Assembly: GCA_004297005.1 (NCBI GenBank)
Contig: SCVA01000002.1
Span: 1 to 64,000, forward strand
Length of the DNA stretch: 64,000 nucleotides
Reading direction: 5' to 3'
Source: Nevskiaceae bacterium
GTDB lineage: Bacteria; Pseudomonadota; Gammaproteobacteria; Nevskiales; Nevskiaceae
This document shows positions 30,815-39,183 of the stretch, in pieces. The notes beneath the pieces were generated by a model. The model ran no database searches. It was given only the letters and a program-made list of their open reading frames with translations, and was not told the DNA's origin. The translations under genes were made by a program, and so were the position numbers. Position 1 is the stretch's first letter. Every line of letters begins with the position of its first letter.

Positions 30815-31069
30815 ATGCGCGTCGTCAACTTCTCCGAAGCCCGCAACAACCTCAAGGCGGTCATTGACGGCGTGGTCGAAGACGCCGACTACGCGGTGAT
30901 CTCGCGCCGTGACGCGCCGGATGCGGTGCTGATGTCGCTGGATACCTACAACAGCCTGATGGAAACCGTGTACCTGTTGAAGTCGCCCGCCAACGCTGCC
31001 CATCTGCAGCGCTCCGTCGAGCAGTTGCGCGCGGGCAAGGCCAAACCACAGCCTCTGGCCGATGCCTAA
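30815..31069 (+). CDS. yefM: YefM-type antitoxin (Phd/YefM family)
   Basis: An 84-residue antitoxin with the Phd/YefM N-terminal DNA-binding fold (VVNFSEARNNLKAVIDGVVEDADYAVISRRDAPDAVLMS) and a C-terminal segment (TVYLLKSPANAAHLQRSVEQL) that wraps the toxin. It neutralises YoeB and represses the operon. It overlaps yoeB by 8 bases. Confidence 0.95.
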   Translation: MRVVNFSEARNNLKAVIDGVVEDADYAVISRRDAPDAVLMSLDTYNSLMETVYLLKSPANAAHLQRSVEQLRAGKAKPQPLADA

Positions 31070-31325
31070 ACGCATCGTCTGGACCGCCGCCGCCTGGGAA
31101 GACTACCTCTACTGGCAGACACAGGACCGCAAGACCCTCAAGCGCATCAACCTGCTGATTCAGGACGCCTTGCGCGAACCTTTCGCCGGAATCGGCAAGC
31201 CCGAACCCTTGAAGGAAAATCTCGCGGGCTTCTGGTCCCGCCGCATAGACGATACCCATCGGCTGGTCTACTGCATCGAGAACGGCGACCTCGCAATCGT
31301 CGCCTGCCGCTACCATTACGAATGA
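31062..31325 (+). CDS. yoeB: YoeB-type mRNA interferase toxin
   Basis: An 87-residue ribosome-dependent endoribonuclease of the RelE/YoeB family. Residues matching the E. coli YoeB active site are present: Glu 48 in KPEPLK, Arg 67 in THRLVY and the C-terminal His 85-Tyr 86 (CRYHYE). DYLYWQTQD is the usual N-terminal block. The toxin therefore looks intact. Its stop overlaps the folD start by ATGA. Confidence 0.95.
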
Positions 31326-32253: not shown

Positions 32254-35142
32254 ATGAGCGAAATGGAAAAAACCTACGAGCCGGGCGCCATCGAGGCACG
32301 CTGGCGCGAGGCCTGGGAACAGGGCGGCTGGTTTGCCGCCGGCCAGCACACGCCAGGCGATGGCGAAGGCTACGCGGTGATGATCCCGCCGCCGAACGTC
32401 ACCGGCACCCTGCACATGGGCCACGCCTTCCAGCACACCATCCAGGACGCGCTGATCCGCCACGCCCGCATGTCCGGCAAGGACACGCTCTGGCAGATGG
32501 GCACCGACCACGCCGGTATCGCCACGCAGATGGTGGTGGAGCGCAATCTCAAGCTGGCCGGCGAGCCCAGCCGCGCCGAGCTGGGCCGTGAGAAGTTTCT
32601 GGAAAAGGTCTGGGAGTGGAAGAAGTATTCGGCCGGCACCATCGGCCAGCAGATCCGCCGCATGGGCTCCTCGGTGGACTGGAGCCGCGAGGCCTTCACC
32701 ATGGACCCGGCCTACAACGAGGCGGTGATCGAGCACTTTGTAAAACTCTACGAAGATGGTCTGATCTATCGCGGCAAGCGCCTGGTGAACTGGGACCCGG
32801 TGCTGCAGACCGCGATCTCGGACCTGGAAGTGGTCAGCGAGGACGAGAACGGCAAGCTCTGGCATCTGCGCTATCCGCTTGCCGACGGTAGCGGCCAGTA
32901 CCTGATCGTCGCCACCACCCGTCCTGAGACCCTGCTCGGCGACACCGCGGTGGCGGTACACCCGGAGGATGAGCGCTACCAGCACCTGATCGGCAAGACC
33001 GTGCTGCTACCGCTCGCGAATCGCGAGATTCCGATCATTGCCGACGATTTTGTCGATCGCGAGTTCGGAACCGGCGTGGTGAAGATCACGCCGGCGCATG
33101 ACTTCAATGACTATCAGGTTGGGCAGCGCCACAAGCTGGCGCTGATCAACGTGCTGACGAAGGACGCGAAGATCGCCGAGGGTTTCCCCTACGCCGGCCT
33201 CGACCGCTACGCCGCGCGCAAGCAGATGGTCGCCGACCTCGAAGCCGCCACCGGCCTCGCCTGCGCACCGGCCAGCCAGAACGAGGACGGCAAGCCGCTC
33301 TACCCGCGCGGTCTGGTCGAGAAGATCGAGGACCACAAGCTCAAGGTGCCGCGCGGCGACCGCAGTGGTGCGGTGCTGGAGCCCTACCTCACCGACCAGT
33401 GGTTCGTGGACCTGACCAACACCGGTCCCAAGGGCGGCTACACCCGCATCACCAAACCGGCCATCGACGCGGTGGAATCCGGCCGCATCCGCTTCGTGCC
33501 GGACAACTGGAAGACCACCTACTTCCACTGGCTCAACAACATCCAGGACTGGTGCATCTCGCGCCAGCTCTGGTGGGGCCATCGCATCCCGGCCTGGTAC
33601 GACGCGCAGGGCAAGGTCTACGTCGGTCGTGACGAGACCGAGGTGCGCGCCAAGCACGGCCTCGCCGCCGAGGTGGCGTTGACGCAAGACAACGACGTCT
33701 TCGACACCTGGTTTAGCTCCGACATCTGGCCGTTCGCGACCCTGGGCTGGCCACAGCAGACGCCGGAACTGAAGAAGTACTACCCGGGCGCGGTGCTGGT
33801 CACCGGCTTCGACATCATCTTCTTCTGGGTCGCCCGCATGGTGATGATGGGCTGCTACTTCCAGCAGGAGGTGCCGTTCAAGGACGTGTTCATCACCGGC
33901 CTGGTGCGCGACCCGGAAGGCAACAAGATGTCGAAGTCCAAGGGCAATGTGCTGGACCCGCTGGACGTGGTCGACGGCATCGCGCTGGAAGAGCTGGTGA
34001 AGAAGCGCACCACCGGCCTGATGAAGCCGGAGACGGCGCCAAAGATCGAGGCCAAAACCCGCAAGGACTACCCCAAGGGCATCGCGCCGGTGGGTGTGGA
34101 TGCGCTGCGCTTCACCTTTGCCGCGCTCGCCACCAACGGCCGCGACGTGCGCTTCGACGCCGGCCGCGCCGAGGGCTACCGCAACTTCTGCAACAAGATC
34201 TGGAACGCCTCGCGCTTTGTGCTGATGAATCTCGGCGCCATCGACGCCGAGACCGGCGCCGCGCTCACCCCGCCCTCGCTGGACGGCGAAGCGACGCTCA
34301 GCACCGCCGACCGCTGGATCATCTCCACCCTGCAACGCGTCGAGGTCGAGGCGGCGCAGCACTACGCCGACTACCGCTTCGACCTGTTGGCGCAGACGCT
34401 CTACCAGTTCATCTGGAACGAGTACTGCGACTGGTACCTGGAACTCTCCAAGCCCGCCCTGCTCAACGGCTCGGACCCACAGAAGCGCGGCACCCGCCGC
34501 ACCCTGGTGCGCGTGCTGGAAGCCTGGCTGCGCCTGCTGCATCCGCTGATGCCCTTCCTCACCGAGGAAATCTGGCAGAAGGTGGCGCCGCTGGCCGGCA
34601 AGACCGGCCCCAGCATCATGGTGCAGCCCTATCCGGTCTCGCAGCCGGAAAAGATCGACGCGGCGGCCGAAGCCGACATCGAATGGCTCAAATCCCTGAT
34701 CCTCGGCGTGCGCCAGATCCGCGCGCAGATGGACATCTCGCCGGGCAAGGTGCTGCCGCTGCTGATCCAGAACGCCAGCGCCTCCGACCGCGAACGCCTG
34801 ACGCGCCTGAGCGACAGCGTAGTGTTCCTGGCCCGCGTTGAAGCGCCGAAGCTGCTGGCCGCCGACGAGACCGCGCCGGAGTCCTCCACCGCCCTGCTGG
34901 GCGAGGCCAAGCTGCTGGTGCCGATGGCCGGGCTGATCGACAAGAACGCCGAGCTGGCGCGGCTGGCCAAGCAGATCGCCAAGCTGGAGGCCGACCTGGT
35001 GCTCACCAACGGCCGCGTCGCCAACCCCAACTTCGGCAAGGCGCCGGAAGCGGTGCAGCAGAAGACCCGTGACCTGATCGCCCAGCAGGAACGCGACCTC
35101 GCCGCCTTGAAGGCGCAGTCGGCGCGCATCGAGGCGCTTTAG
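32254..35142 (+). CDS. valS: Valyl-tRNA synthetase
   Basis: A class I synthetase of 962 residues, normal length. It has the HIGH motif as HMGH (54-57, in [12 protein letters not shown]), the CP1 editing domain ([20 protein letters not shown]), KMSKS at 558-562, an anticodon-binding domain and the C-terminal coiled coil ([25 protein letters not shown]). Start candidates are ATG 32254 (chosen), 32263 and 32218; MEKTYEPG at 32263 is closest to the E. coli N-terminus. The stop TAG (35140-35142) is the first three bases of a palindromic repeat. Confidence 0.97.
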
Positions 35143-35421
35143 GGTGTGTCTCCCATTGCTAACTCGCTGCGTTGCTGGTCAAAACCGCGCAGTGCGAGGC
35201 GCGAGACGTAGCGCAGGCTGGAGCCTGTGCATGTCTCGCAACGAAGCAATGCGCGCCAAGCAGTTTGTTCAGGGCCGCAACCCTTCGGGGCCGGACTGTT
35301 TTGGCGCATCGCGGCGTCAGCGAGTCCTTCGATGGGGTCAACCATCGCGCGGCCTCACTTCCTTGCGCTGCGCCAAAACAGCCTTCGGCCGCAGCGAGTT
35401 AGCAATGGGAGACACACCCTA
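35140..35421. mobile_element. Palindromic MITE-like element, copy A
   Basis: A 282-base element with perfect 32-bp terminal inverted repeats (35140-35171 and 35390-35421). They begin TAGGGTGTGTCTCCC and end inward with TCGCTGCG. The interior holds hairpins such as AGGCTGGAGCCT (35215-35226) and a block GCAACCCTTCGGGG (35277-35290) shared with copy B. It encodes no protein. TA at both ends would fit a TA target duplication of the IS630/mariner type, but the palindrome makes this impossible to prove here. The left end forms the valS stop codon and the right end abuts the fxsA ATG. Confidence 0.88.
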
Positions 35422-35832
35422 ATGCCATTCTTGTTGCTGGCGATTCTGGTCGGGGTGGAAACCTACGGCATCCTGCAGGCGATCAAGCTGATCGGCGGCT
35501 GGTACACGCTGCTATGGCTGCTGGGCGCGATGGCCGCCGGCAGCTATGTGATCACCCATGGCGGCATCACCGCCCTGCGTCGCATCCAGTTGGCGGTGGC
35601 GCGCGGCGAGCTGCCGGCGGCGGAGCTGTTCAGCGGCCTGGTCACCGCCTTCGCCGGCCTGCTGCTGATCCTGCCCGGCTTCGTCACCGACGCCATCGCG
35701 ATCAGTCTGCTGCTGGGCGGCGGGCGCATTCGCAAGCGCCTGGGCGAGAAGCTCTCGGGCCAGATGGCGCAGGCGCGCCCCGACCTCAAGCGGCCGGTAA
35801 CGCTGGACGGCGAGTACCGCCGCCGTCCCTAG
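35422..35832 (+). CDS. fxsA: FxsA-family cytoplasmic membrane protein
   Basis: A 136-residue membrane protein of the FxsA family, known in E. coli for relieving F-plasmid exclusion of phage T7; the cellular role is unclear. It has three or four hydrophobic segments (MPFLLLAILVGVETYGILQ, GGWYTLLWLLGAMAAGSYVI and ELFSGLVTAFAGLLLILPGFVTDAIAISLLL), with the typical LPGFVTDAI motif, then a basic tail. The ATG directly abuts the end of palindromic copy A. GGGAG at 35407-35411, inside the repeat, is the best ribosome-binding site, 10 bases upstream. Confidence 0.93.
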   Translation: MPFLLLAILVGVETYGILQAIKLIGGWYTLLWLLGAMAAGSYVITHGGITALRRIQLAVARGELPAAELFSGLVTAFAGLLLILPGFVTDAIAISLLLGGGRIRKRLGEKLSGQMAQARPDLKRPVTLDGEYRRRP

Positions 35833-35848
35833 CCCCGCGGCGCTGCGC

Positions 35849-36118
35849 TAGGGCCTGTTAACGCTACGGGGATCGCTGCGTTGCCGGTCAAAAGCGCGTC
35901 AGGCAAGGCGCGAGCTGACGCAAAGGCTGGAGCCTTTGCTAAGCGAGCAACGCCGCATGACGCGCTTTTGGCCAGCAACCCTTCGGGGCGGGACGGTTTT
36001 GGGGCATTGCGGCGTCAGCAAGAGTTTCAATAGACCCACTATTGCGCACTCTTGCTTCCTTGCACTGCCCCAAAACCGCCTTCCGCCGCAGCGATTCCCG
36101 TAGCGTTAACAGGCCCTA
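35849..36118. mobile_element. Palindromic MITE-like element, copy B
   Basis: A 270-base element related to copy A, with 32-bp terminal inverted repeats (35849-35880 and 36087-36118) matching at 31 of 32 positions. They begin TAGGGCCTGTTAACGC and end TCGCTGCG. Inner hairpins include GCAAAGGCTGGAGCCTTTGC (35920-35939) and TTTTGGGG / CCCCAAAA. The block GCAACCCTTCGGGG (35975-35988) is identical to copy A, while the middle of the terminal arm differs completely. The right end supplies the TAG stop of the minus-strand patatin gene. Confidence 0.88.
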
Positions 36119-37588
36119 GTCGCGGCGGCTGACCACCCGCAGGCGCGCCTTCTTGCCCGGCAGCTCCGGGTTGTCGGCGACGCGGCCGGAGGGCCGGCTT
36201 TCCAGCTCGATCAGGCAGTTCTCCAACGTCTGGCTGATCACCGTCTGGTTGCGGATCATCTCCATCCGTGACCAGGTGGCGCGCTCGCCTTCGAGCATGA
36301 AGCGCACCACCGAATCCTGGCTGGGATTGCGGGTGATGTTGGCGTAGCGCCATAGGCTCACCTCGGGAACGATATTGATGTTGCCGCGATAGTCCTGGTC
36401 GAGCAGGCCGGCAGCGGTATCGAGGCCCTGGCGCACACCGGCGAACGGCATGTTGGCGCGGGCGAAGTTGAGCACGCCGCTGGCCAGCCCGCGGCCGGTG
36501 GAATACGCCGCCTGCCGGCTGGCATTGATCAGGCCGCGACCGTCGTTGTCGCGACGGCTGACAAAGGGCAGCACATGCGGATTGGTCTGGCTGACGATGA
36601 AGTGGTTGACGTTGTGCAGGCGGCGCAGGCGCAGCATCGGCAGATCGGACTTCAGCGAGCCGTCGTTCCAGCGCAGCAGCGGCATGTAGGGCGTGCGCTC
36701 GCCGTCGTCGCTCTTGGTCATCAGCATCACCGGCGGGAACAAGACCGGCACCGCGCAGGAAGCGAGCACCGCCTCGCGCACGTAGAGGTAGGGAAAGGTC
36801 AGGTGGTTGAGCAGCTTGGGCGGCTGGTTGAAGCCGGCCGGCGACACCGTGATGTTGACGATGCGGCCCGAGAGCTTGTGCGCCTCTTCGAAGGTGAGGT
36901 CGCGGATATTGGTGGCGATGGCGCGCTTGAGCTGGTTCTGGTCCATCACCGCGCGGCGCAGCAGCATCATCTTCGGCGGCAGCACCTTCCAGAAGTGGTA
37001 GTAGGCCTTCTCCGGGTCCAGTAGTTCTTCGGCCTCGTGCGGCGCGCGGGTGCCCACGGTGGCGGCCACCACCGAACCGGCCGAAGAGCCGGAGAGCACG
37101 GTCGGCAACAAGCCCTCGCGGAACAGCGCCTTGACCACGCCGACATGGAACAGGCCCAGGGTGGCGCCACCCGAGAGCATCAGCGCCGAACGGCCGTAGG
37201 ACAGGGCCACGTTCTGGAAGAAATTCAGCTTTTCGGGATAAGGGAACTCGGCATCCGGCAGGTCGCGGATGAACTCCAGCGCCTCGCAGACCTCGCGCAG
37301 ATAGTCGGTGACCAGCTTCTTGGTGCCGACCCGGGTGTAGGTATAGAGCTGGGTGTTGCCGAGATTGCCCAGGTTCCAGTGCAGGCCCTGGCGCAGGTGG
37401 TGAATCAGCTTGCTGTGCTGCCGCTCGGCGCGGTACTGCCTAATCTGCCGCAGGCGCGAGCGGATCAGCCGCCAGTCGTAATCCTCACAGGCGTCGTCCT
37501 CTTTCCAGGCGTCGGCGCCCTGGTGGCGGTCCAGCTCCAGCGCCGCCTCGCGCCAGCCGGCGTAGTCACTGGCTCGCTTCATCGCCAT
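36116..37588 (-). CDS. Patatin-like phospholipase with DUF3336 N-terminus
   Basis: A 490-residue protein: an N-terminal DUF3336-type helical region (about 1-130, including DYDWRLIRSRLRQIRQYRAE) followed by a patatin domain. The oxyanion-hole glycines are in SGGATLGLFHVG (139-150), the nucleophile Ser 169 in GSSAGS, and the catalytic Asp in WNDGS. Proteins with this architecture include eukaryotic triacylglycerol lipases such as yeast Tgl3-5 and plant SDP1, so a lipid hydrolase or transacylase role is likely. ATGs at 37588 and 37582 are both possible starts; neither has a strong ribosome-binding site. The stop TAG is formed by the end of palindromic copy B. Confidence 0.9.
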   Translation of the reverse strand: MAMKRASDYAGWREAALELDRHQGADAWKEDDACEDYDWRLIRSRLRQIRQYRAERQHSKLIHHLRQGLHWNLGNLGNTQLYTYTRVGTKKLVTDYLREVCEALEFIRDLPDAEFPYPEKLNFFQNVALSYGRSALMLSGGATLGLFHVGVVKALFREGLLPTVLSGSSAGSVVAATVGTRAPHEAEELLDPEKAYYHFWKVLPPKMMLLRRAVMDQNQLKRAIATNIRDLTFEEAHKLSGRIVNITVSPAGFNQPPKLLNHLTFPYLYVREAVLASCAVPVLFPPVMLMTKSDDGERTPYMPLLRWNDGSLKSDLPMLRLRRLHNVNHFIVSQTNPHVLPFVSRRDNDGRGLINASRQAAYSTGRGLASGVLNFARANMPFAGVRQGLDTAAGLLDQDYRGNINIVPEVSLWRYANITRNPSQDSVVRFMLEGERATWSRMEMIRNQTVISQTLENCLIELESRPSGRVADNPELPGKKARLRVVSRRD

Positions 37589-39108: not shown

Positions 39109-39183
39109 GGACAGTTAGCTCAGTGGTAGAGCATCGCCTTCACACGGCGGGGGTCACAGGTTCAAGCCCTGTACTGTCCACCA
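39109..39183 (+). tRNA. tRNA-Val (anticodon CAC), CCA encoded
   Basis: A complete cloverleaf. The acceptor stem GGACAGT pairs with ACTGTCC; the D arm is GCTC/GAGC. The anticodon stem TCGCC/GGCGG (one G-U pair) carries loop TTCACAC with anticodon CAC, reading GUG. The T arm is ACAGG-TTCAAGC-CCTGT. The discriminator A and CCA (39181-39183) are encoded. It has its own promoter and terminator, so it is a single-tRNA transcription unit. Confidence 0.96.

Follow-up and report, generated by a model that had tools for sequence, protein, structure and literature searches.

How can a transposon diversify at both ends and still keep them matched, given that a single mutation breaks the pair? This open question is raised by two palindromic elements, copies A and B, in the stretch of DNA analysed here (the window), 64,000 nucleotides from a Nevskiaceae bacterium (contig SCVA01000002.1, positions 1 to 64,000 of the forward strand). 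The initial annotation of the window placed copy A at 35140-35421 and copy B at 35849-36118, with arms of 32 bases that change between copies and still pair within each copy. Its coordinates are exact: the arms match at 32/32 positions in A and 31/32 in B, arm positions 11-24 are identical between the copies at just 2/14, and the common TAGGG, TCGCTGCG, internal hairpins and GCAACCCTTCGGGG are present in both. A and B are full-length copies of a ~270 bp element resembling a miniature inverted-repeat transposable element (MITE), multi-copy in this genome and in its relatives, and the family as a whole is a widespread structured variant of a MITE with ends of the IS5 type, in which the paired evolution of the arms is unusually clear. 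The explanation that we favour, and hold to be probable, is a non-autonomous element of ~270 bp, likely mobilised by a transposase of an IS5-type insertion sequence (IS), whose arms are kept matched by shared binding together with correction at the DNA level. Because one conserved body carries many different arms across dozens of copies, direct counts of paired, unpaired and mirrored changes are possible.

The palindromes of A and B are not due to chance, as judged by RNA folding z-scores of -12.8 (A) and -17.8 (B), a DNA folding z-score of -15.2 (B), and 0/200 shuffles as stable in each of these three tests. Single motifs alone are unremarkable (TCGCTGCGTTG with at most one mismatch occurs 4 times in the window, 3.1 expected), and the reading frames inside both copies are all short. 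The combined pattern TAGGG-N15..25-TCGCTGCG has 31 matches in the 3.57 Mb genome and the reversed control pattern 1; of these 31, a pair that differ in spacing and lack partners are probably chance matches. With copy B as the BLAST query, matches were found in 5/5 genomes of the genus (the own genome, G000, included), so that the arm pairs do recur in this genome and its relatives, where the initial annotation had proposed to look; relatives of its ValS put the genome near Nevskia (72% identity) and Fontimonas (70%). Across 37 genomes of the same family the pattern totals 319 matches vs. 72 for the control, and in 24 genomes from other families of the order 16 vs. 48, which is chance level. 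Of 369 gammaproteobacterial genomes, 20 (the own genome among them) have pairs of outer arms 225-255 bases apart, and they span 17 families, one of which (f144) depends solely on a locus of ambiguous orientation, L365; the control for this pattern matched in a single genome, G096. Copies were also found on plasmids of Azotobacter (two, one of them without a good right arm), Halomonas and Variovorax, phage records gave no match at E 1e-5, and a 25-base match in Thioclava is probably chance. The Variovorax copy is a match outside the Gammaproteobacteria, the class that the systematic search covered. A partial further copy (L180, G000:C24:64229-64307) lies 229 bases past the right end of the window. 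In Legionella pneumophila, the arm string TAGGGTCTGTTGAC lies in primers for one locus, and the primer adjoining lpg2920-21 contains TTTAGGGTCTGTTGAC (PMC12457610, excerpt), possibly the terminus of a related element in that species. PMC12457610 is one of three papers to which arm and interior strings led, the others being PMC4776018 and PMC4810273.

The 80 loci processed are a part of the BLAST matches listed for the genus genomes. Ten of the 80 lacked one automatic boundary and were dropped (L005, L043, L047, L048, L049, L159, L176, L177, L179 and L180), as was L033, which is copy A itself, and the remaining 69 loci plus B make 70 full copies. Nine of these, 321-371 bp long with extra modules, exceed 300 bases and were excluded from the alignment, which has 61 rows of 259-282 bp; copies across the class measure 266-283 bp among the matches listed. 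The element has the features by which a MITE is recognised: it is short and without a transposase gene, with inverted-repeat ends, a target duplication, dispersed copies and empty sites.

The arms of these copies are strongly paired and change in pairs. Watson-Crick pairs fill 1180 of 1218 arm cells in the 61-row alignment, 34 of the 61 copies are free of mismatches, and arm cores are ~50% different between copies. The whole structure is 97.6% paired; shuffling the columns lowers this to 82.2% and sliding them to 36-42%, and covariation is 0.395 vs. 0.107. Many arm columns hold all four pair types; for example, columns 13/278 have AU 27, GC 23, CG 8 and UA 3, with 0 broken. Along a minimum spanning tree of the arms, 157 changes were paired and 52 unpaired, when 13.0 paired changes are expected if the arms change independently and the maximum in 1000 simulations was 26. 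In the genus, pairing extends over 23 arm bases (the A of the TA counted) plus the inner stem, and in one copy, L198, each arm is one base shorter than in its nearest copies. Internal stems co-vary above expectation as well, but less cleanly than the arms, with 63 paired and 114 unpaired changes in the left hairpin (5.8 paired expected) and 8 and 21 in the right hairpin (0.1 expected). At the scale of the class, 23 aligned elements (this genome gave 2, other genomes 18 and plasmids 3, with L365 left out for its ambiguous orientation and L357 for want of a good right arm) fold into a common cloverleaf of 87 pairs, 71 of which show double change, and 13 of 20 class copies have unbroken arm pairing in runs of 23-33 bases.

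Arms and interior behave as separate modules. Between copies, left-arm and right-arm distances correlate at r=0.95, and arm and interior distances at r=0.25. In 64 copy pairs the interiors are at least 93% identical, and here the arms are at most 60% identical in 35 pairs and at least 90% in 12; in the extreme pair, L161 and L162 of one genome, the interior is 98.7% and the arms 56% identical. The reverse was seen once, in L149 and L196 of two species, with left arms at least 95% alike on interiors only 67% alike. Interiors exchanged between copies by ordinary recombination would explain this mosaic. At the mini-hairpin, copies from G000 and from two of its congeners (G003 and G004) can carry a third hairpin module of 99 bases, and in the other two (G001 and G002) a 50-base module can lie in the right hairpin. 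These extra palindromic modules of ~99 and ~50 bases stand at fixed places in several species (L002, L046, L155-L158, L178; L194, L200).

Empty sites, which the initial annotation had suggested seeking, were found for both copies: the valS/fxsA junction and the junction of fxsA with a patatin-like gene are element-free in 4/4 congeners (G001-G004). In G004, whose FxsA is 99% identical, valS and fxsA overlap in TGATG, and in the own genome the element lies within an apparent TAATG, as TA, element, TA and then the remaining ATG context. The valS stop codon thus takes its TA from the target and its G from the first base of the element, and fxsA keeps its start codon unchanged; the gene stays intact after insertion into its stop codon because TA and that first G respell TAG. 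Amongst the 70 full copies 55 have a TA on the left, 52 have one on the right and 45 have it on both sides, mostly in CTA/TAG context (in these counts of TA and ends L198 is shifted one base out of register). A stop codon of a coding-like open frame is supplied at one end or more by 42/70 copies, and coding-like ends number 61, 15 and 30 by phase (137 ends tested). Under the same phase test, in which phase 0 of a control site is already a stop codon, sites from the window outside A and B passed at 20/37 CTAG and 35/76 YTAR sites, from which the copies do not clearly differ (Fisher p 0.68 and 0.10); by ends, the figures are 61/106 vs. 23/50 for CTAG (p 0.23) and vs. 39/103 for YTAR (p 0.006). 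Insertion at stop codons is real, but its frequency is not clearly above that of CTAG sites at large; the choice of CTAG as a target explains most of the link, and a mild extra preference for stop codons is possible. Stop-codon targeting as an adaptation was rejected, being not significantly above CTAG by sites or by ends.

For arms that vary in concert the initial annotation had offered selection for a stem, gene conversion between arms, or several element subfamilies, and subfamilies are supported by the search for an IS with the same ends. For several arm types, the outer ~18 bases are also found at the ends of different IS5-family elements from a number of genomes, which suggests that arm types probably follow IS5 subfamilies. 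In G185, a genome of another family, 5/5 IS copies have perfect ends TAGGGCGTGTTAACACTAAT and, among the matches listed, there is also a ~269-base element with arms TAGGGCCTGTTAACACTATCC; the IS ends of G041 read TAGGGCGTGTTGCCGTTT and the element arms of G044, of the same genus, TAGGGCCTGTTGCCGTTTC. A decayed IS5-type element in G002 ends in TAGGGAGCGTTGACAATTG and a related right end, and ends like these occur in G022 (TAGGGCCTGTTAACACTAAC, with a close variant opposite), G024 (TAGGGCCTGTTAACAATT, likewise paired with a close variant), G061 (GAGGGTGTTGCCATAAT) and G064 (TAGGGCCTGTCATCAATTG, read at a single end), with related CTGTTAACAATCA ends on the IS of G027. The ends in G002, G022, G024, G041, G061 and G064 are of the TAGGG/TAGAG type. 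The transposases of G185, G041 and G024 have NF033580 (NCBI, IS5 family) as their best model, the two transposase frames of G185 each falling slightly below its cut-off singly. DUF4096 is present in 8/41 family genomes, G022, G024, G027, G061 and G064 among them, and a matching IS5 transposase and the element occur in the same genome in G185 and G024. Sequence likeness marks the arms as ends of the IS5 type, and their variable core, or at least its outer part, falls where IS5 elements themselves vary.

The element and these ISs thus share the outer end sequence and a TA at both ends, and in several cases the same genomes or genera. They differ in that the ISs (NF033580 transpos_IS5_3; DUF4096 + DDE_Tnp_1) are 808-860 bp long with a two-frame transposase and no palindromic body seen, and in that the IS ends are identical over 18-20 bases at most in the cases read (20 bases in G185 and 18 in G041, TA included). 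In the explanation that we favour, IS5-type transposases would likely move the element in trans into TA sites, and its arm types would be fits to different IS5 subfamilies. The arms would stay matched in part because one transposase must bind both ends; as arm pairing usually runs deeper than the IS ends and internal stems co-vary too, we add a step in which template switching or gene conversion within the folded palindrome may correct an arm, at the DNA level, to match its partner. Both kinds of process have precedents. In Wolbachia, recombination between the terminal repeats of one copy of ISWpi1 can make the repeats identical (PMC3004938, excerpt), there at two loci of a full IS and here in dozens of copies with many arm types. 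Template switching is a DNA-level process that maintains hairpins and yields paired stem changes (PMC8794818, excerpt), but it is described for RNA genes, and the string "transpos" is absent from the main text of that paper. A bolder and more tentative version, for which we see a possible but unproven case, is a self-correcting palindrome throughout the class, in which the folded element copies arm onto arm in DNA and changes at one end are mirrored at the other. If true, a transposon relic re-tools both ends together and hops between IS5 transposase lineages whilst its cloverleaf body is kept, a route of end evolution for which the papers searched gave us no description in any mobile element.

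Several observations weigh against the favoured explanation. The IS ends of G041 are unlike the type of its own element arms, and DUF4096 elements of G008 and G018 carry other ends. No IS5 or IS630 transposase over cut-off was found in G000, G001, G003 or G004 with the profiles PF13358 (IS630), DDE_Tnp_1, DDE_Tnp_1_2 and DUF4096 (G003 has one DDE_Tnp_1 match below cut-off), an absence to be read with the fact that drafts can lose ISs at contig ends; a DUF4096 match is likewise missing in 18/25 copy-bearing genomes searched. Amongst 20 class copies, 7 have their first arm mismatch inside the outer 22 bases. A core change without an answering change in the opposite arm, which the initial annotation had named as the contrary case, is rare in the genus, and it does occur: arms of G018, from another genus, consistently differ at inner positions, and column 25/266 (B: 35872/36095), the base before TCGCTGCG, shows no pairing tendency (AC 16, GT 15, GC 13, AT 11, CG 4, CC 2), with a purine on the left and a pyrimidine on the right in 55/61 copies, between neighbours that pair almost perfectly. 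Paired changes are also unclustered (13 tree edges, p=0.21) and give no multi-base copying tract, so that copying in multi-base tracts was rejected and single-site mirroring alone is supported. Conversion between arms is accordingly plausible rather than demonstrated, with internal co-variation and deep pairing for it and the lack of tract clustering against it. Finally, G-T pairs outnumber A-C in the genus interior, at 46 vs. 10 in the left hairpin (17 vs. 9 over pairs at least 85% Watson-Crick), 10:3 in the right hairpin and 10:5 in the inner stem, a lean that is hard to weigh, since the fold was predicted on the strand counted, which favours G-T. Inner arm ends in G018 take the alternative forms ..TTGGCGCA and ..TTGCCGTA at opposite ends of the same copies, among the matches listed, so that spread in that genome seems not to require identical inner arms.

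Much of this bears equally on the simplest alternative, to which we give a substantial chance, short of an even one: that arms match solely through recognition by the same transposase, IS5 subfamilies giving the arm types, with no copying between arms. The same positions vary in IS5-family ends, the arms are better matched (157:52) than the left (63:114) and right (8:21) hairpins, the ratio of paired to unpaired changes falls inward (62:25 in columns 12-19, 28:17 in columns 20-24), and mismatch is tolerated at the inner positions of G018 arms. The recount that yielded 7/20 class copies with an outer-arm mismatch gives this alternative more weight and the favoured explanation less. What recognition leaves over is pairing that, in the genus and in 13/20 class copies, exceeds the 18-20 bases common to the IS ends, internal stems that are not ends and co-vary too (63 paired vs. 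5.8 expected), and the shortening of both L198 arms by one base.

As for selection for a stem, pairing is maintained far above chance and paired changes in the arms exceed single ones, but selection on one single-stranded RNA stem is unsupported for the arms, where G-T pairs number 12 and A-C pairs 18 in the genus alignment; the absence of a G-T excess argues against selection on one RNA strand there. A structured RNA, such as a terminator or regulatory RNA whose transcript is under compensatory selection, would fit the very stable fold, the class-wide cloverleaf with its double changes, the location at gene ends and the G-T excess of the genus interior stems. We nevertheless consider it unlikely, as G-T and A-C are equal over arms and interior of the 23 class elements (53 and 53), paired transversions are about as frequent as paired transitions (51 vs. 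56, on tree edges of at most 12 differences), Rfam at gathering scores has no match for A or B (the sole match in the window is a tRNA at 39109-39180), and a simple scan of 34900-36400 found no promoter- or terminator-like site. The idea that selection on RNA structure causes the arm pairing was rejected, there being no wobble excess in the arms or class-wide; the interior may work as a single strand. For annotators, the point of practical interest is a ~270 bp structured element at gene ends, found in a range of gammaproteobacteria, that could pass for an RNA gene or a terminator.

A transposase of the IS630 type is a very unlikely mobiliser: such enzymes share the TA target within CTAG, and IS630-type elements of G018 and G064 also begin in CTAG, but PF13358 has 0 matches in all 5 genus genomes and 29/30 IS630 loci lack a TAGGG-type end pair, the exception being L092, so that IS630 was rejected. 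At L092, in G018, an IS630 has apparently inserted into a copy of the palindromic element. REP/REPIN-RAYT, ERIC, Correia and RUP elements are small dispersed palindromes too, and several of them duplicate TA; the end sequences of ERIC, Correia and RUP differ from those found here. Mobilisation as a REP/REPIN-type repeat by a resident REP-associated tyrosine transposase (RAYT) is scarcely credible and was rejected, for although the element is an intergenic palindrome and Y1_Tnp matches occur in all 5 genus genomes (below cut-off in the own genome), 4/5 loci read are flanked by palindromes of another kind (CGTAGGGTGGGC.. at the G000 and G002 loci, other GTAG-type repeats in G003 and G004) and none was seen at the G001 locus, 30 loci gave weak short matches to the element (best E 0.017), and the element itself is bounded by TA on both sides and has ends of the IS5 type. 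The RAYT-like gene of the own genome (L314, G000:C26:24797-25147; Y1_Tnp below cut-off) is flanked by its own CGTAGGGTGGGC palindromes, and its upstream segment is duplicated.

Compared with bacterial MITEs in general, the element is likewise short, non-autonomous and intergenic, with inverted-repeat ends, a target duplication and a stable fold (PMC10969869, excerpt). Its body differs in being a multi-hairpin scaffold conserved class-wide, with arms that vary independently of it, and it is GC-rich where MITEs are typically AT-rich according to that review (PMC10969869, excerpt), in which the two words beginning with IS5 are both IS50. The initial annotation knew of no named family with this pattern, and we found none: Rfam gave no match for A or B at gathering scores, and the open literature (subscription papers lay outside the search) gave no description for such MITEs, for MITEs of Nevskia or Halomonas, or for the arm and interior strings. 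The parts of A and B are listed in Table 1.

Table 1. Parts of the two palindromic copies, in window coordinates.
Copy	Part	Position	Strand	Remark
A	Left arm	35140..35163	+	Target TA and 22 bases
A	Stop codon in left arm	35140-35142	+	Doubles as TAG stop codon of valS
A	Inner stem TCGCTGCG	35164..35171	+	
A	Left hairpin	35172..35281	+	Long imperfect palindrome
A	Mini-hairpin	35282..35290	+	Within GCAACCCTTCGGGG
A	Right hairpin	35291..35389	+	
A	Inner stem CGCAGCGA	35390..35397	+	
A	Right arm	35398..35421	+	Second TA at end; ATG start of fxsA at 35422
B	Left arm	35849..35872	+	TA and 22 bases
B	Inner stem TCGCTGCG	35873..35880	+	
B	Left hairpin	35881..35979	+	
B	Mini-hairpin	35980..35988	+	Within GCAACCCTTCGGGG
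B	Right hairpin	35989..36086	+	
B	Inner stem CGCAGCGA	36087..36094	+	
B	Right arm	36095..36118	+	Second TA at end
B	Stop codon in right arm	36118-36116	-	TAG stop codon of the patatin-like gene

Elsewhere in the window, two short overlapping genes at 30815-31325 on the plus strand are toxin-antitoxin-like, and we take them to resemble a pair of the YefM/YoeB type.

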